DNA of 64,000 nt, from NCBI GenBank assembly GCA_022823505.1, contig JAJEIA010000077.1, positions 1-64,000 on the forward strand, read 5' to 3'. Positions 13,330 through 26,908 of this stretch are shown piece by piece. The position numbers and the translations under genes are program-made. The stretch is from Dehalococcoidia bacterium. GTDB taxonomy: Bacteria; Chloroflexota; Dehalococcoidia; Lucifugimonadales; UBA3495. Under the pieces are notes generated by a model that was given only the letters and a program-made list of their open reading frames with translations, was not told where the DNA came from and searched no databases. Numbering within the stretch: position 1 is the first letter of the stretch; each line of letters starts with the position of its first letter.

Positions 13330-13680
13330 CTACGACTGTTCCAATAAAGGCAGAAGTTTGTTCAGCAGTGCCTCAACGTCGTCCAGGCTTTCCGAGACCT
13401 CGGAGGCGTGCATCGTGTTTTCGTAAAAATTCTCGTGGAGTGCACTGGCGGTGTTGAACCGGCGACGGATTTCGCCGTCGCCGGTCTCGGCCCTCAGCCG
13501 GCTGACTGTGATGAGGTGGTGCCGATGCCGGCTGTGTTCCCATCCGCGTTGTTCGGCGAGCGCTTTGAGGATCTGGACAGAAGCGCCCCAGCCTTTTTCG
13601 GAGGCCTGGGGCAGATCGCCATCCGCCCATTCCCTTCTGGCCTGCGCCAGGAAATGTTCGCTGGCTTGTTGATACCTCAC
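13330..13680 (-). CDS. HEPN/PaREP1-like small protein
   Basis: 116 residues, all-helical. The segment ADGDLPQASEKGWGA followed by LKALAEQRGWEH fits PaREP1-type HEPN proteins. It carries R45-x6-H52, the arrangement of the HEPN ribonuclease motif. The second half (HENFYENTMHASEV, ending LLNKLLPLLEQS) aligns with the B-type proteins at 24846-26001 in this window. Start is a GTG; an in-frame stop lies just upstream. No A-type partner is next to it. Function is not established; RNA cleavage or a regulatory role is inferred from the fold only. Confidence 0.65.
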   Translation of the reverse strand: MRYQQASEHFLAQARREWADGDLPQASEKGWGASVQILKALAEQRGWEHSRHRHHLITVSRLRAETGDGEIRRRFNTASALHENFYENTMHASEVSESLDDVEALLNKLLPLLEQS

Positions 13681-22689: not shown

Positions 22690-23541
22690 TTACTGCACCA
22701 GATTGGGCGTGACCTCGGCGGGGATGCCGCCGGCTTCCATCTCGCGGCCGCGGGCCTCAACCTGCGGGATGATCGAGGCGACGAGGTCCTCGTCCAGGTC
22801 GGCGGCGACGCCGGGGTAGCCGGCGCGCTCGAGCATGGCCTTGAGCTTGCCGGTCTTGAACTGGTCGAGGCACCAGCCCAGCGGGTCGGGGACCAGGGTC
22901 TTATCCCAGAAGATGCGGTGGTTCTTGTTGCGCGGGCCGTAGTGGTAGTGCGGATCGTCCCGGAAGCAGTCGAAGGCCAGCAACTCGGTCTCTTCCGTGA
23001 ACACGCGGCCGGTGTTGCCGGCCAGGTCGCTGAGAACGTGGATGGCCAGCCCGCCGTCGCCGGAGGCCTGGCGGCGCATCTCGAGGCCAAAGCGGATGTT
23101 GCCGGCTTCGATGATGTCGGTGCCGCGGTTGTGCTTGACGGTGTTGCGCTCGGCGGCGAACTTGACCCGGGCGGTGGCATCGACCTCGTCCAGGGCGGCG
23201 TTGACCGCGTTCATATCCAGCGCGCCGGCGGCGTCGGCATGGCCGGCCCGGGTCAGCATGGCGGCAAGGTTGCTGCGCATGGTCCTGACCGACCAGCCGA
23301 TGGGGTTGCCGTCGACGGTGTGGTCCATCCGGTAGTTGATGCTCTCGCCGTCGGGCGCGTAAACGTAGCTCTTTTCGATGTCGAAGCAGTTGAAGCGCAG
23401 CGCGGTCTCGCCGCCGACCTCCACCAGGATGACCACGCCCTGGTCGGAGTGGTCCTGGATGTTGCCGTCCCACAGCTCGTGCTGCACCACGAAGGCGACG
23501 TTACCCGCTTCAAACCTGATCCGTCCTCGCTGTGTCGTCAT
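22690..23541 (-). CDS. Protein with two tandem related domains, unknown function
   Basis: 283 residues. Two halves of about 125 residues align. The first runs from FEAGNVAF through LRFNCFDIEKSYVYAPDG, DGNPIGW, RSNLAAMLTRAGHADAAGALD. The second runs from IEAGNIRF through LAFDCFRDDPHYHYGPRN, VPDPLGW, GKLKAMLERAGYPGVAADLD. Each half thus has a beta-rich part with C-F-D-I/R, an aromatic-rich loop, a P-x-G-W motif and a C-terminal helix pair. The family is not recognised. No signal peptide. The CF(D/R) and YHYGP segments could form a ligand or metal site (guess). Confidence 0.7.
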   Translation of the reverse strand: MTTQRGRIRFEAGNVAFVVQHELWDGNIQDHSDQGVVILVEVGGETALRFNCFDIEKSYVYAPDGESINYRMDHTVDGNPIGWSVRTMRSNLAAMLTRAGHADAAGALDMNAVNAALDEVDATARVKFAAERNTVKHNRGTDIIEAGNIRFGLEMRRQASGDGGLAIHVLSDLAGNTGRVFTEETELLAFDCFRDDPHYHYGPRNKNHRIFWDKTLVPDPLGWCLDQFKTGKLKAMLERAGYPGVAADLDEDLVASIIPQVEARGREMEAGGIPAEVTPNLVQ

Positions 23542-23625: not shown

Positions 23626-24123
23626 TCACATCCCCAGGGCTTCTCGGATGGCGCGGAGTTGGTTGAGGTGCTCGCCCCAGTGCCGTTCCAGACCATCGAT
23701 GAACGATTGTGCGGTGCGTTGCTCGTGGATTTCGCGGTGCGGGAGATGAGCCATGGCGGTCCGTGCCTCAAAATCGCCGTCGCCGGCGTTGGCAATGGCG
23801 TCCTCGGCGGTTTGCAGGATGGCCAGGGGGCCGGCCAGGGCATCGCCAATGTCTGTGGCCAGGCGCTCTGGCGTCATGTTGTTGGCGTCGGGCAGGATGG
23901 TGACCTCTTGAAGGCTGCCGGCCAGGACGCCGGCGATTACGCCGCCGATGCCGCCCTCGGGCGTGTCCACCAGGTGGTAGAGGACCTCCCGGGCGCACCA
24001 TGGATCAGCGTCGGATCTGGCGCCGTCCTTCCAGTCCAGGCAGTAGTCCATGCCGTCCAGGGCAGCGATCAACTCGTCGCGGATGCGGCGGACGGTGGCG
24101 AGGTTGGTGGTGCGGTCAGCCAT
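23626..24123 (-). CDS. DinB-family protein
   Basis: 165 residues. The helical-bundle pattern of the DinB superfamily is seen: VRRIRDELIAALDGMDY at the start, WCAREVLYHLVDTP in the middle (His ligand) and HWGEHLNQLRAIREAL at the end (His ligands). Substrate unknown. The start codon overlaps the 3' end of the upstream membrane-protein gene by 8 bp, so translation is probably coupled. Last gene in the minus-strand run from 26908. Confidence 0.78.
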   Translation of the reverse strand: MADRTTNLATVRRIRDELIAALDGMDYCLDWKDGARSDADPWCAREVLYHLVDTPEGGIGGVIAGVLAGSLQEVTILPDANNMTPERLATDIGDALAGPLAILQTAEDAIANAGDGDFEARTAMAHLPHREIHEQRTAQSFIDGLERHWGEHLNQLRAIREALGM

Positions 24124-24829
24124 GTTCAGGTTCTCCAGTCTGGGGTTGAGGGTCTGCGGCGCTGACGGCAGGCGGCTTGAGCAATCCGGCGACCAGCCAC
24201 AGGCCGCTGACGACCAGCCAGGCGAGGAAGGCAATGCCGGATACCCGGTGCATGGCGGTGGCGGCATCCACCCAGATGAACAGCATGGCGACGCCGATGA
24301 CGAGGTCCGCCACGGCGGACACCTTGAGCAGCCCACCGATGCGCCACTGCACCGGCGCCAGGCCGATCAGGCCCAGCCCGGCCAATGTGAAACCGGCCTT
24401 CCCCGTTATCCAGCGGGCAGCGTCCAGCCGGCCGACCAGCTCCAGCGAACCGGCATCGCCAGTTGCAAGCGCGGAAGGACCGACAGTGGTCAGCATGATC
24501 GCGCAGATTCCCGAGACCACCGTGATGACGCCGGACAATGACAGCGCCGTCATCGCCAGCCTGGCCGGCGCCGGATGGTAGGGTGTCGTCACGTATCGCA
24601 GAACGCCAGCCGCAGCCAGCAGGAACACGCCGGAGGCAATGCGCGCCGCCGCGCTGTAGGTGTAAGCCAGGGTGTTGGCGTCGATGGCCTCGAGGCTCAG
24701 ACGGAGGGTCGGCTGATCGGCGTCGGCCATGATGCGCGTGGGCACCATGATGGCCGTGGCCACGGCGGTAAGGAGGAGAAACACGCCGGCGATGCGGGCG
24801 CTGCCGGCGAAGTAGGTTGATACGTGCAT
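24116..24829 (-). CDS. Membrane protein, DUF4386-like
   Basis: 237 residues with about six hydrophobic segments, starting SARIAGVFLLLTAVATAI. The arrangement (N-terminal SARIAGV..L, long loops with small residues, AARWITGKAGFTLAGLGLIGLAPV) resembles DUF4386-type membrane proteins. Function unknown. An ATG at 24829 is chosen over a TTG 27 nt upstream; the gap to the HEPN-like B1 gene is 16 nt, so the genes likely share a transcript. Confidence 0.7.
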   Translation of the reverse strand: MHVSTYFAGSARIAGVFLLLTAVATAIMVPTRIMADADQPTLRLSLEAIDANTLAYTYSAAARIASGVFLLAAAGVLRYVTTPYHPAPARLAMTALSLSGVITVVSGICAIMLTTVGPSALATGDAGSLELVGRLDAARWITGKAGFTLAGLGLIGLAPVQWRIGGLLKVSAVADLVIGVAMLFIWVDAATAMHRVSGIAFLAWLVVSGLWLVAGLLKPPAVSAADPQPQTGEPEHG

Positions 24830-24845
24830 AACGATCGGTTGCGGG

Positions 24846-25199
24846 TCAGGCGGCAAGGGGAAGGAGGCGGTTAATCAGGGAGCGGGTGGTATCAGCGGCA
24901 TCTCGAACTTGAACATCTGCCATATTGTTCAGGTAAAAATGGACGTGGAGCCGGTTCGCATCCTTGTAGTCTTCAACAATTACGGGGTCGTCAATCTCGG
25001 CGATTATTTGGCGCATTACGTGGCGACGATGTTGATGTTCCTGATACCGTTGTCCGCGCTGCATGGCTATGGCAATGATGACCTGCGACAAGGAGCCCCA
25101 GAGCAACTCGGCTCCTGCCATGTCGTCGCCATTGCCAAAGTGCTGTTCGGCGAGCAAAGACAATTCGGTGGACGTACGCAGCCTCTCTGTCGATGTCAT
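24846..25199 (-). CDS. HEPN/PaREP1-like protein B1
   Basis: 117 residues, all-helical. FGNGDDMAGAELLWGS and the IIAIAMQRGQRYQEH segment match the PaREP1-like pattern and contain R48-x6-H55, the HEPN RNase arrangement. NRLHVHFYLNNM and LINRLLPLAA match the solitary gene at 13330-13680. The start overlaps the stop of A1 by ATGA, so A1 and B1 are coupled and likely form a complex. HEPN proteins are often RNases in toxin-antitoxin or defence systems; no activity is proven here. Confidence 0.7.
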   Translation of the reverse strand: MTSTERLRTSTELSLLAEQHFGNGDDMAGAELLWGSLSQVIIAIAMQRGQRYQEHQHRRHVMRQIIAEIDDPVIVEDYKDANRLHVHFYLNNMADVQVRDAADTTRSLINRLLPLAA

Positions 25200-25564
25200 G
25201 ACACGTCGCGCACTGAGAAGCCCAACATACGATCAATGAACCCGGTAGAGATGTCCCAGTCCTCTTCAACATCTTGGGCGGGTATAGCGAGGCCCATCCC
25301 ATTTGTTCGGGCCAAGTCGGCGCAACCCAACGCGGACATGAAGCCGCGTTTTTCAGGATGTGCTTGGGCGATCCGCCGACCGGCGGCATAGACTTCGTCG
25401 AACGTGTCGCAGGGCCAACCGCGTTCTTGGGCAACGCACTTGATGGCGTGGGCGGTGGCTTCCCAGATGCGTTTGCAGAAGAGCTCATGGTCGCGCTGGG
25501 CCATGGCCTGGTCGGCAAGCCAGACCTTGTTGCGAACTTGCTGGATTTGCGCCGGGGATAACAT
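25196..25564 (-). CDS. HEPN/PaREP1-like protein A1
   Basis: 122 residues. KRIWEATAHAIKCVAQERGWPCDTFDEVYAAGR fits the same helical fold as the B proteins, but the motif position after the Arg has Phe instead of His, so the RNase motif is lost. The C-terminal DWDISTGFIDRMLGFSV is shared with A2. The ATG at 25564 gives the same start (MLSP) and the same length as A2; a TTG two codons earlier is less likely. Own -10 box upstream. Confidence 0.68.
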   Translation of the reverse strand: MLSPAQIQQVRNKVWLADQAMAQRDHELFCKRIWEATAHAIKCVAQERGWPCDTFDEVYAAGRRIAQAHPEKRGFMSALGCADLARTNGMGLAIPAQDVEEDWDISTGFIDRMLGFSVRDVS

Positions 25565-25597
25565 GGCCAATCTCCGCGTCCCGATAAGGGTTTGATC

Positions 25598-25603
25598 ATT
25601 ATA
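25598..25603 (-). promoter_or_regulatory. -10 box of the A1-B1 unit
   Basis: TATAAT on the minus strand inside GCCGGCTATAATG, 33 nt before the A1 ATG. The same 13 bases occur before A2. Confidence 0.55.
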
Positions 25604-25648
25604 GCCGGCCCTGACGAAGGGTCAGAGCAACCGCGCGGCGTGCCCGGG

Positions 25649-26001
25649 TCAGGCAGACAGCGGGAGAAGACGGTCGATGAGAGCGTGGGTTTTCGCAACC
25701 GCGCTGCTCAGCAACTCCGTAGGCATATCGTTGTGATAGAAGTGGGCGTGCAATCTCTGGGCTTCGCTGAAGTCGCGCCGGATGGAATCTTCGCCCAATT
25801 CACGCACCAGATTGCGAACCGTTGCACGGCGATGTTGATGGTCCTGGATTGGTTCCTGACGGTTCATCGCGATGGCTATGACTATTTGCGTCACCGCGCC
25901 CCACAGCATTTCGGCGCCGACCATAGAATTGCCAGCAGCGAAAATTTATCTGCAAGGGTGATGAATTCCCGCGCGGCCCTGATGCGTTCCTCCGCGGTCA
26001 T
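25649..26001 (-). pseudogene. HEPN/PaREP1-like protein B2, frameshifted
   Basis: From the ATG at 26001 (ATGA overlap with A2) the frame gives MTAEERIRAAREFITLADKF, like B1. The match then continues in the -1 frame as FAAGNSMVGAEMLWGA, IAIAMNRQEPIQDHQH and LIDRLLPLSA. The whole span is 353 nt, one base short of the 354 nt of B1. The shift lies at the TTTT run near 25950. The R-x6-H motif (RQEPIQDH) is kept in the second part. Possible causes are decay, a sequencing error in a homopolymer, or programmed -1 slippage on TTT-T. Confidence 0.7.
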
Positions 26002-26366
26002 TCGATCTGGCGCACCGGTCGGCCCAGGACCCTTTCTATAAAGCCTGGAGCAAGATCCCAGTCTTCGACCACTTCGTAATCGTCAAATATCTTCCACTGC
26101 GCATTGGCACGGTGGCATTCAGCGAAATTGAGCTCAGACTCGGCGGCGGACTCGTCGTCTTGCTCCCCGGCGATTTTGCGCCCGGCCGCGTAGATCTCCT
26201 CGAACGTCGAGTGGGGCCAGCCGCGCCCTTGCGCCACGAACTTGATTGCCAGGGCCGTAGCATCCCACATTTTTTGGCTGGCCAAGCAATAATCCTGCTG
26301 ACCCAACGCCAAGTCAGCTTCCCAAACTACGCTCTGAACTTTTCGCGCTTGCTCCGGGGATAGCAT
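25998..26366 (-). CDS. HEPN/PaREP1-like protein A2
   Basis: 122 residues, a paralogue of A1 (shared LSP start, QKMWDATALAIKFVAQGRGW, FEEIYAAGRKIAG and DWDLAPGFIERVLG). The B-type R-x6-H is missing here too (RGWPHSTF). Coupled to B2 by an ATGA overlap. A clean ATG with GGGGAGATAACC upstream marks the start. Confidence 0.68.
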   Translation of the reverse strand: MLSPEQARKVQSVVWEADLALGQQDYCLASQKMWDATALAIKFVAQGRGWPHSTFEEIYAAGRKIAGEQDDESAAESELNFAECHRANAQWKIFDDYEVVEDWDLAPGFIERVLGRPVRQIE

Positions 26367-26398
26367 GGGTTATCTCCCCAACAGACTGGGATGTAAAC

Positions 26399-26404
26399 AT
26401 TATA
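26399..26404 (-). promoter_or_regulatory. -10 box of the A2-B2 unit
   Basis: TATAAT on the minus strand inside GCCGGCTATAATG, 32 nt before the A2 ATG, identical over 13 bases to the A1 copy. Confidence 0.55.
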
Positions 26405-26422: not shown

Positions 26423-26908
26423 TCAGGGAGCGAGCGGCGCGTAGGAGAACCAGCCTCCCGGGGGCAGAAAGTACCCGAGTAGCCACACCAGCAGGATCGC
26501 CACGACCAACGCCAGGTAGAAGGGCCAGACGGACATGGAGCGCAGGCTGACCAGCATCTGCTTGTTGACCGGGCCGACCGGGCGCACGACGTACAGGTCG
26601 GACAGCTCTACCGCTCCGACACTGTGCAGCTTGTGGACAAAGGCGTTGTAGGAGTTGCGGAACACTTGCTCCAACGCTAGGTAGTAGGCGTCAAGAAACA
26701 GGAAGAACGCTGCAGGGATCAGAGCCAGCAGGGCGTAGGCGGGGGCTCCGGAGCGGGCCACAAGCACCAGGATGGCCGCCACCAGGACGATGCACCAGTT
26801 CTTGCACGACGCGCTGTTGCCGGCCATGCGCTGGATGACGTCCTGCAGGATGGTCAGGTGCGTCCGAACCGCCTCGGAATTGGCGCCGTATTCCCGTTGG
26901 CTGGCCAT
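26423..26908 (-). CDS. Conserved small membrane protein (2-4 TM)
   Basis: 161 residues. The layout HLTILQDVIQRMAGNS - K/CW..LV - hydrophobic pair - LDAYYLALEQVFRNSY is a widespread uncharacterised family (ILxxVIxRMxxNS...LDAYYLxxExxFRxxY). Two central hydrophobic segments (about 42-72) and a C-terminal pair (about 128-150) are visible. SLATT-like 2TM effectors of defence systems have a similar feel, but I cannot show homology. It is 56 nt upstream of the HEPN-like A2 gene on the same strand, so a link is possible. Confidence 0.7.
   Translation of the reverse strand: MASQREYGANSEAVRTHLTILQDVIQRMAGNSASCKNWCIVLVAAILVLVARSGAPAYALLALIPAAFFLFLDAYYLALEQVFRNSYNAFVHKLHSVGAVELSDLYVVRPVGPVNKQMLVSLRSMSVWPFYLALVVAILLVWLLGYFLPPGGWFSYAPLAP

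Follow-up and report, generated by a model that had tools for sequence, protein, structure and literature searches.

Coupled His-less and His-bearing PaREP1 HEPN proteins form a candidate toxin-antitoxin-like module in Dehalococcoidia

Why would a bacterium keep two small homologous proteins in coupled genes, when one of them lacks the catalytic His that the other retains? This question is raised by a locus in the window, the whole 64,000-nucleotide stretch of Dehalococcoidia DNA analysed here, where two A-B gene pairs, four small open reading frames in all, lie on the minus strand, together with promoter-like elements placed by sequence comparison:

25998 to 26366, minus strand: A2, an intact His-less PaREP1-like HEPN protein of 122 amino acids, with Phe at the HEPN His position
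25649 to 26001, minus strand: B2, a PaREP1 HEPN gene with R-x6-H and LHxxFY, interrupted by a 1-base frameshift at about 25940
25196 to 25564, minus strand: A1, a His-less PaREP1-like HEPN protein of 122 amino acids
24846 to 25199, minus strand: B1, a PaREP1 HEPN protein of 117 amino acids with R-x6-H and LHxxFY, ATGA-coupled to A1
26399 to 26404, minus strand: TATAAT, similar to a -10 element, 33 nt 5' of the A2 ATG
25598 to 25603, minus strand: TATAAT, similar to a -10 element, 34 nt 5' of the A1 ATG

The A1 gene is taken from its ATG at 25564, the longest open reading frame starting at a TTG at 25570. LHxxFY, the second motif of the B proteins, is missing from the A proteins, and A2 keeps R48. 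The TATAAT of A2 sits within a GCCGGCTATAATG context, which by sequence comparison is common to both window modules and to relatives. Since A1 and A2 are 46% identical, B1 and B2 44% identical, and A2 is homologous to B1 (blastp E=1e-5, 22% identity), the window holds two related modules; relatives have one module type, either that of A1/B1 (G007, G008) or that of A2/B2 (G001, G003, G005). A chance origin of the layout is disfavoured by the conservation of the pairing across genomes. Most of what a first-pass annotation had read from the letters was recovered: two A genes of 122 amino acids each, mutual homology of the proteins, an ATGA overlap at each A-B junction, R-x6-H in B (RGQRYQEH in B1, RQEPIQDH in B2), and Phe aligned with the His position in both A1 and A2. 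Its two B genes of 117 amino acids reduced to one, as B1 has this length and B2 is not intact. Rfam and tRNA scans of the window returned no matches.

In B2, the frame opened by the ATG at 26001 runs for 36 codons before its stop, and the PaREP1 part is found in a different frame (25649-25939) because a T run at about 25940 is one base short: the window reads AAATTTTCG, compared with CATTTTTTCGG in the intact relative G001. This frameshift may be a mutation or an assembly error. A programmed frameshift was considered and rejected: B2 has no classical slippery heptamer, the T run of the intact relative is longer, and the frameshift in the B gene of G006 lies elsewhere.

Both B proteins score above the Pfam cut-off of 24.4 bits for PaREP1 (PF05942), B1 with 33.8 bits and the downstream fragment of B2 with 40.6 bits. 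The same profile gives no match for A1 and a match below the cut-off for A2 (12.8 bits, E 0.11), and the kinship of A with PaREP1 proteins is seen solely by pairwise and lineage-profile comparison. The family assignment suggested at first pass is therefore recovered by profile for B and not for A; the defence families of PADLOC-DB 2.0.0 gave no match to A1, A2, B1 or B2 at E<=1, and NCBIfam held nothing meaningful for A or B. Structure prediction bears out the proposed HEPN fold: the AlphaFold2 model of B1 (pLDDT 91.5) matches 2hsb (Z 14.8) and 2q00 (Z 14.3), the latter being the structure of a Sulfolobus PaREP1 protein, and matches HepT toxins at Z of about 10. On the A side, the A-type domain of L095, a protein of a relative in which A and A' are naturally fused, is matched to both 2hsb and 2q00 at a probability of 1.00. 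The AlphaFold model of this fusion (pTM 0.52) has low inter-domain confidence and is therefore uninformative on the A:B interface.

Public records of the close relatives are metagenome-assembled Dehalococcoidia/SAR202 genomes, among them bin87 from the sponge Aplysina aerophoba (PMC5649159). PaREP1 genes are abundant in all 14 genomes of the genus (10-58 copies per genome). An expansion confined to the genus, hinted at by a class sample in which most other genomes have none to nine copies, was rejected, since other genera of the order have 12-35. The window also contains a solitary PaREP1 gene (13333-13680, minus strand), which has both His motifs and matches PF05942 better than any other gene of the genome.

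The asymmetry seen in the window recurs well beyond it. Syntenic A proteins carry F, E, Y or D at the catalytic His position while retaining the Arg, and R-x6-H is conserved in syntenic B orthologues. The R-x6-H His is absent from 39/39 A proteins, which are partly defined by missing His motifs, and present in 26/32 B proteins and in each of 46 other copies; the LHxxFY His occurs in every one of the 32 B. Six B proteins thus have no R-x6-H His (for example L118, L119, L120, L122, L142 and L143). In 14 of 19 modules, which are not fully independent, A is more acidic than B (p=0.006); the window's own module is an exception to this trend.

Because the A rows are partly motif-defined, a grouping by spacing alone is the fairer test of the asymmetry. 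The pair set comprised the tandem PaREP1 genes of G000, G012 and G013 (full catalogue), four chosen loci of G004/G009 and the syntenic loci, and a pair was called close when at most 30 nt separated the upstream stop from the downstream domain start. In close pairs the upstream gene lacked both His in 30/31 cases and the downstream gene in 0/31, compared with 1 and 3 respectively among 21 wider tandems (Fisher p=3e-12; 4e-10 without syntenic copies). The exceptional close pair, L142, has an upstream gene without the R-x6-H His that keeps the other His. The single upstream case among the wide tandems and one of the three downstream cases come from the window, because the frameshift displaces the annotated start of B2 and because A1 follows B2; another downstream case is the A gene of the second module of L122. 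The active/inactive HEPN pair proposed at first pass corresponds, then, to a real and systematic His-plus/His-less asymmetry, the two adjectives being drawn from the motifs. By genome, G000 has about 10 modules, G012 about 8 and G013 about 6, and the ATGA overlap is found in syntenic modules.

In the regions sampled outside the genus, the A-B layout is rare. A coupled His-less upstream partner was absent from 40 such regions, and 20 further regions yielded two A-B-like pairs, L257 (same family) and L242, the rest being mostly His-bearing copies or tandems. Coupled pairs in which both genes carry the His also occur in other genera (L252, L254, L256). At L162 (G155:C86), likewise outside the genus, the order is reversed: an intact PaREP1 gene comes first, and 2 nt on follows a second gene with Phe at the catalytic His and LHxNFY kept. 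A different arrangement is seen at L153 (G004:C44), a double-domain PaREP1-like protein in which both domains are His-less, with no B gene in the fetched stretch. Similar double-domain-like frames of 245-259 amino acids were found in G001:C12, G007:C14, G009:C26 and G011:C1, and a conserved 'double A' protein may exist.

At a single syntenic locus, 10/14 genus genomes have either A alone or A together with B, and many genomes share the same-strand array MFS-MFS-(c8)-A-B-c2-c1-DUF7700. In the window, the module is flanked by:

26423 to 26908, minus strand: c8, a membrane-protein-like open reading frame of 161 amino acids outside the module, a member of the syntenic array in some genomes
24116 to 24829, minus strand: c2, membrane-protein-like, downstream of B1

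The membrane protein gene reported ahead of the module at first pass agrees with the membrane-protein-like character of c8, which has no Pfam match above cut-off. The DUF4386-like gene reported behind it was not confirmed: that open reading frame is membrane-protein-like and has no Pfam match to DUF4386. No Pfam match was obtained for c2, which every one of the 14 genomes has, whether A-B is there or not, and no nucleotidyltransferase (MNT) was found among the Pfam-scanned flanking genes. The array also includes a DUF7700 protein (22690-23541, minus strand, E 5e-66), a conserved member with no known function. The survey of A-B adjacency proposed at first pass gave a positive answer, with A and B adjacent in other genomes as well as in many paralogous modules. 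In G012 (L088, 7551-9979) the module has an intact MFS gene on one side and, on the other, a C-terminal MFS remnant of 94 aa; this position is unlike that in other genomes and points to a rearrangement or a second insertion.

The two genes of the pair do not persist equally at this locus. A is intact with B broken or absent in three instances: B2 of the window, the B gene of G006, and G013, where A is kept without B and is directly coupled to the next gene. In two of these instances the loss of B comes down to a 1-nt deletion in a T run of a metagenome assembly, which may be an error of that assembly. The reverse, B without A, was found in none of 10 B orthologues, a small number, all of which have an adjacent A. 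In G006 (L089 / L095, G006:C144), two A domains are fused in one frame, followed by the frameshifted B. The whole module has been lost in G011, given that just a 27-aa C-terminal B remnant stands directly behind a promoter-like TATAAT, and no module trace was found at the locus in G002, G004 and G009, where the flanks persist. To judge from the sequence of these four loci, the A-B module is dispensable.

To place the modules relative to one another, a maximum-likelihood tree was computed from 111 alignment columns with the His and LHxxFY columns masked. In this tree, 28 A rows form a single cluster (86/93), outside which lie the A-B modules L127/L139 and L008/L129 (99/95 each). This separation suggests that the dead/intact pair arose at least three times, a count that is provisional because the alignment has only 111 columns and the tree several long branches. 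A and B have diversified together: a Mantel test gave r=0.87 for 32 modules and, for 17 paralogous ones, 0.43 (p=2e-4). Intact A and B showed purifying selection in every case that allowed an estimate of dS, with omega of 0.04-0.09 (0.11 for the B2 fragment), and in nearly every syntenic comparison A was no less conserved than B.

Several elements of this arrangement are known. Excerpts from the PaREP1 literature (PMC3710099, PMC2701414, PMC3558965) describe the PaREP1/PaREP8 HEPN-T family (PF05942) from Pyrobaculum and other Crenarchaeota, and already report PaREP1 itself, its HEPN fold, its expansion and tandem PaREP operons. The present B proteins are like that family in Pfam membership, in sharing the HEPN fold of 2q00, and in being multi-copy and dispersed in genomes. 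They differ in that most copies have R-x6-H, whereas the PaREP1/PaREP8 family is said, in an excerpt from PMC3710099, to lack the R of Rx4-6H. HEPN/MNT (HepT-MntA; PMC7641770) is likewise a two-gene module with a small R-x4-6-H HEPN protein, in which one partner is thought to silence the other; here, however, the place of the nucleotidyltransferase is taken by another HEPN homologue, and the missing RX4HXY motif means that no AMPylation mechanism is implied. As for RnlA/RnlB and other HEPN toxins in the same excerpt of PMC3710099, a HEPN RNase would putatively be curbed by the product of the adjacent gene; unlike RnlB, which the excerpt does not describe as a copy of HEPN, the putative inhibitor would be paralogous to the toxin. 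The inactive HEPN regulators treated in that excerpt, MtlR among them, show that motif-less HEPN proteins persist and may bind RNA, although MtlR belongs to a mannitol operon and the motif-less gene described here is coupled to a motif-bearing partner. Excerpts from the open-access PaREP1 literature (PMC3710099, PMC2701414, PMC3558965) describe no ordered, coupled pair of a His-less and a His-bearing protein. Most subscription journals lay outside the search, and within its reach an ordered dead/intact HEPN pairing appears undescribed so far.

HEPN RNases generally function as dimers, with the active site located where the two subunits meet. On this basis, the pair may be a translationally coupled, probably co-transcribed two-gene HEPN module, in which B, a HEPN protein of the PaREP1 type bearing the R-x6-H and LHxxFY residues that a metal-independent RNase would have, would be a putative RNase and A its homologous pseudoenzyme without the catalytic His. 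Translated first and coupled to B, A would pair with it and replace one B subunit; the composite active site would then be incomplete, and B would be harmless until A is removed or outcompeted. By analogy, this would be a type II toxin-antitoxin pair in which a dead version of the toxin serves as antitoxin. We infer complex formation, RNase activity, toxicity, neutralisation and the trigger or release step. That A is such a pseudoenzyme, disarming B by hetero-oligomerisation in a toxin-antitoxin-like module, is the reading that we tentatively favour from the sequences, and it may well be right without yet being probable. The anatomy agrees with a type II system, in that two small co-directional genes are coupled with the putative antitoxin first, and further traits would resemble one by analogy: in the few cases seen, the putative inhibitor seems more readily kept than its partner, and the module is dispensable and multi-copy. 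Other observations count against it. The window module has stayed at one locus by stable inheritance, which is not expected of a typical mobile toxin-antitoxin pair; the six B proteins without the R-x6-H His leave modules for which an RNase toxin does not account; and the coupled pairs of two His-bearing genes in other genera speak against an antitoxin that is a dead twin.

The main rival makes A and B the two halves of a permanent HEPN dimer, which would bind RNA or a ligand and control the genes next to it, with a structural or regulatory role for the His-less half. We consider this rather unlikely, though it accommodates some observations well: the window module lies within a same-strand array conserved in many genomes, other modules stand among metabolic genes, and the six B proteins without the R-x6-H His retain the LHxxFY His, which fits binding better there, so that binding may outweigh cleavage. 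RNA-binding roles have also been proposed for inactive HEPN domains, such as the MtlR family, in an excerpt from PMC3710099. Yet G002, G004, G009 and G011 have the array without the module, which is therefore unneeded there, neighbours vary between modules, and an obligate dimer would not predict A alone, as in G013.

Two further explanations seem less likely still. If A-B modules and solo PaREP1 proteins were anti-phage RNases or sensors, with A an inhibitor or sensor subunit freed by infection, the lineage-specific HEPN expansion (up to 58 PaREP1 copies per genome in the genus and 35 in other genera of the order) would fit, as eukaryotic expansions of this kind are read as defence-related (excerpt from PMC3710099), and sponge symbionts are enriched in defence and toxin-antitoxin genes (PMC5649159). 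We nevertheless find this improbable: A and B have no PADLOC match, viral contigs queried with B1 gave no relative, and the genes next to 12 other modules are for the most part metabolic and form no defence islands, which leaves a defence role without contextual support. The 96 neighbour genes of module neighbourhoods L196-L207 (G012 and G013) include single DarT and DarG matches. That A is a mere decaying, functionless tandem duplicate of B would account for its lost motifs, and PaREP1 genes do often duplicate in tandem; this idea is already largely refuted, and we give it hardly any credence, since A is under strong purifying selection, is in syntenic comparisons nearly always at least as conserved as B, outlives B at three loci, and shows the same asymmetry in separate parts of the tree.

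Toxins and antitoxins are usually unrelated proteins, and how new pairs start is an open question. If the toxin-antitoxin-like reading is correct, the putative inhibitor here would be a disarmed duplicate of its own partner, present at several depths of divergence and apparently formed more than once, so that the step from duplication to matched pair could be followed. It is possible, if somewhat speculative, that in sponge-associated SAR202 bacteria, with some 6-10 modules per genome, the antitoxin is a His-less copy of the HEPN toxin, generated by repeated tandem duplication and then diversified as a matched pair. For PaREP1, best known as a repetitive gene family, this provides a hypothesis of function that is testable in E. 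coli.
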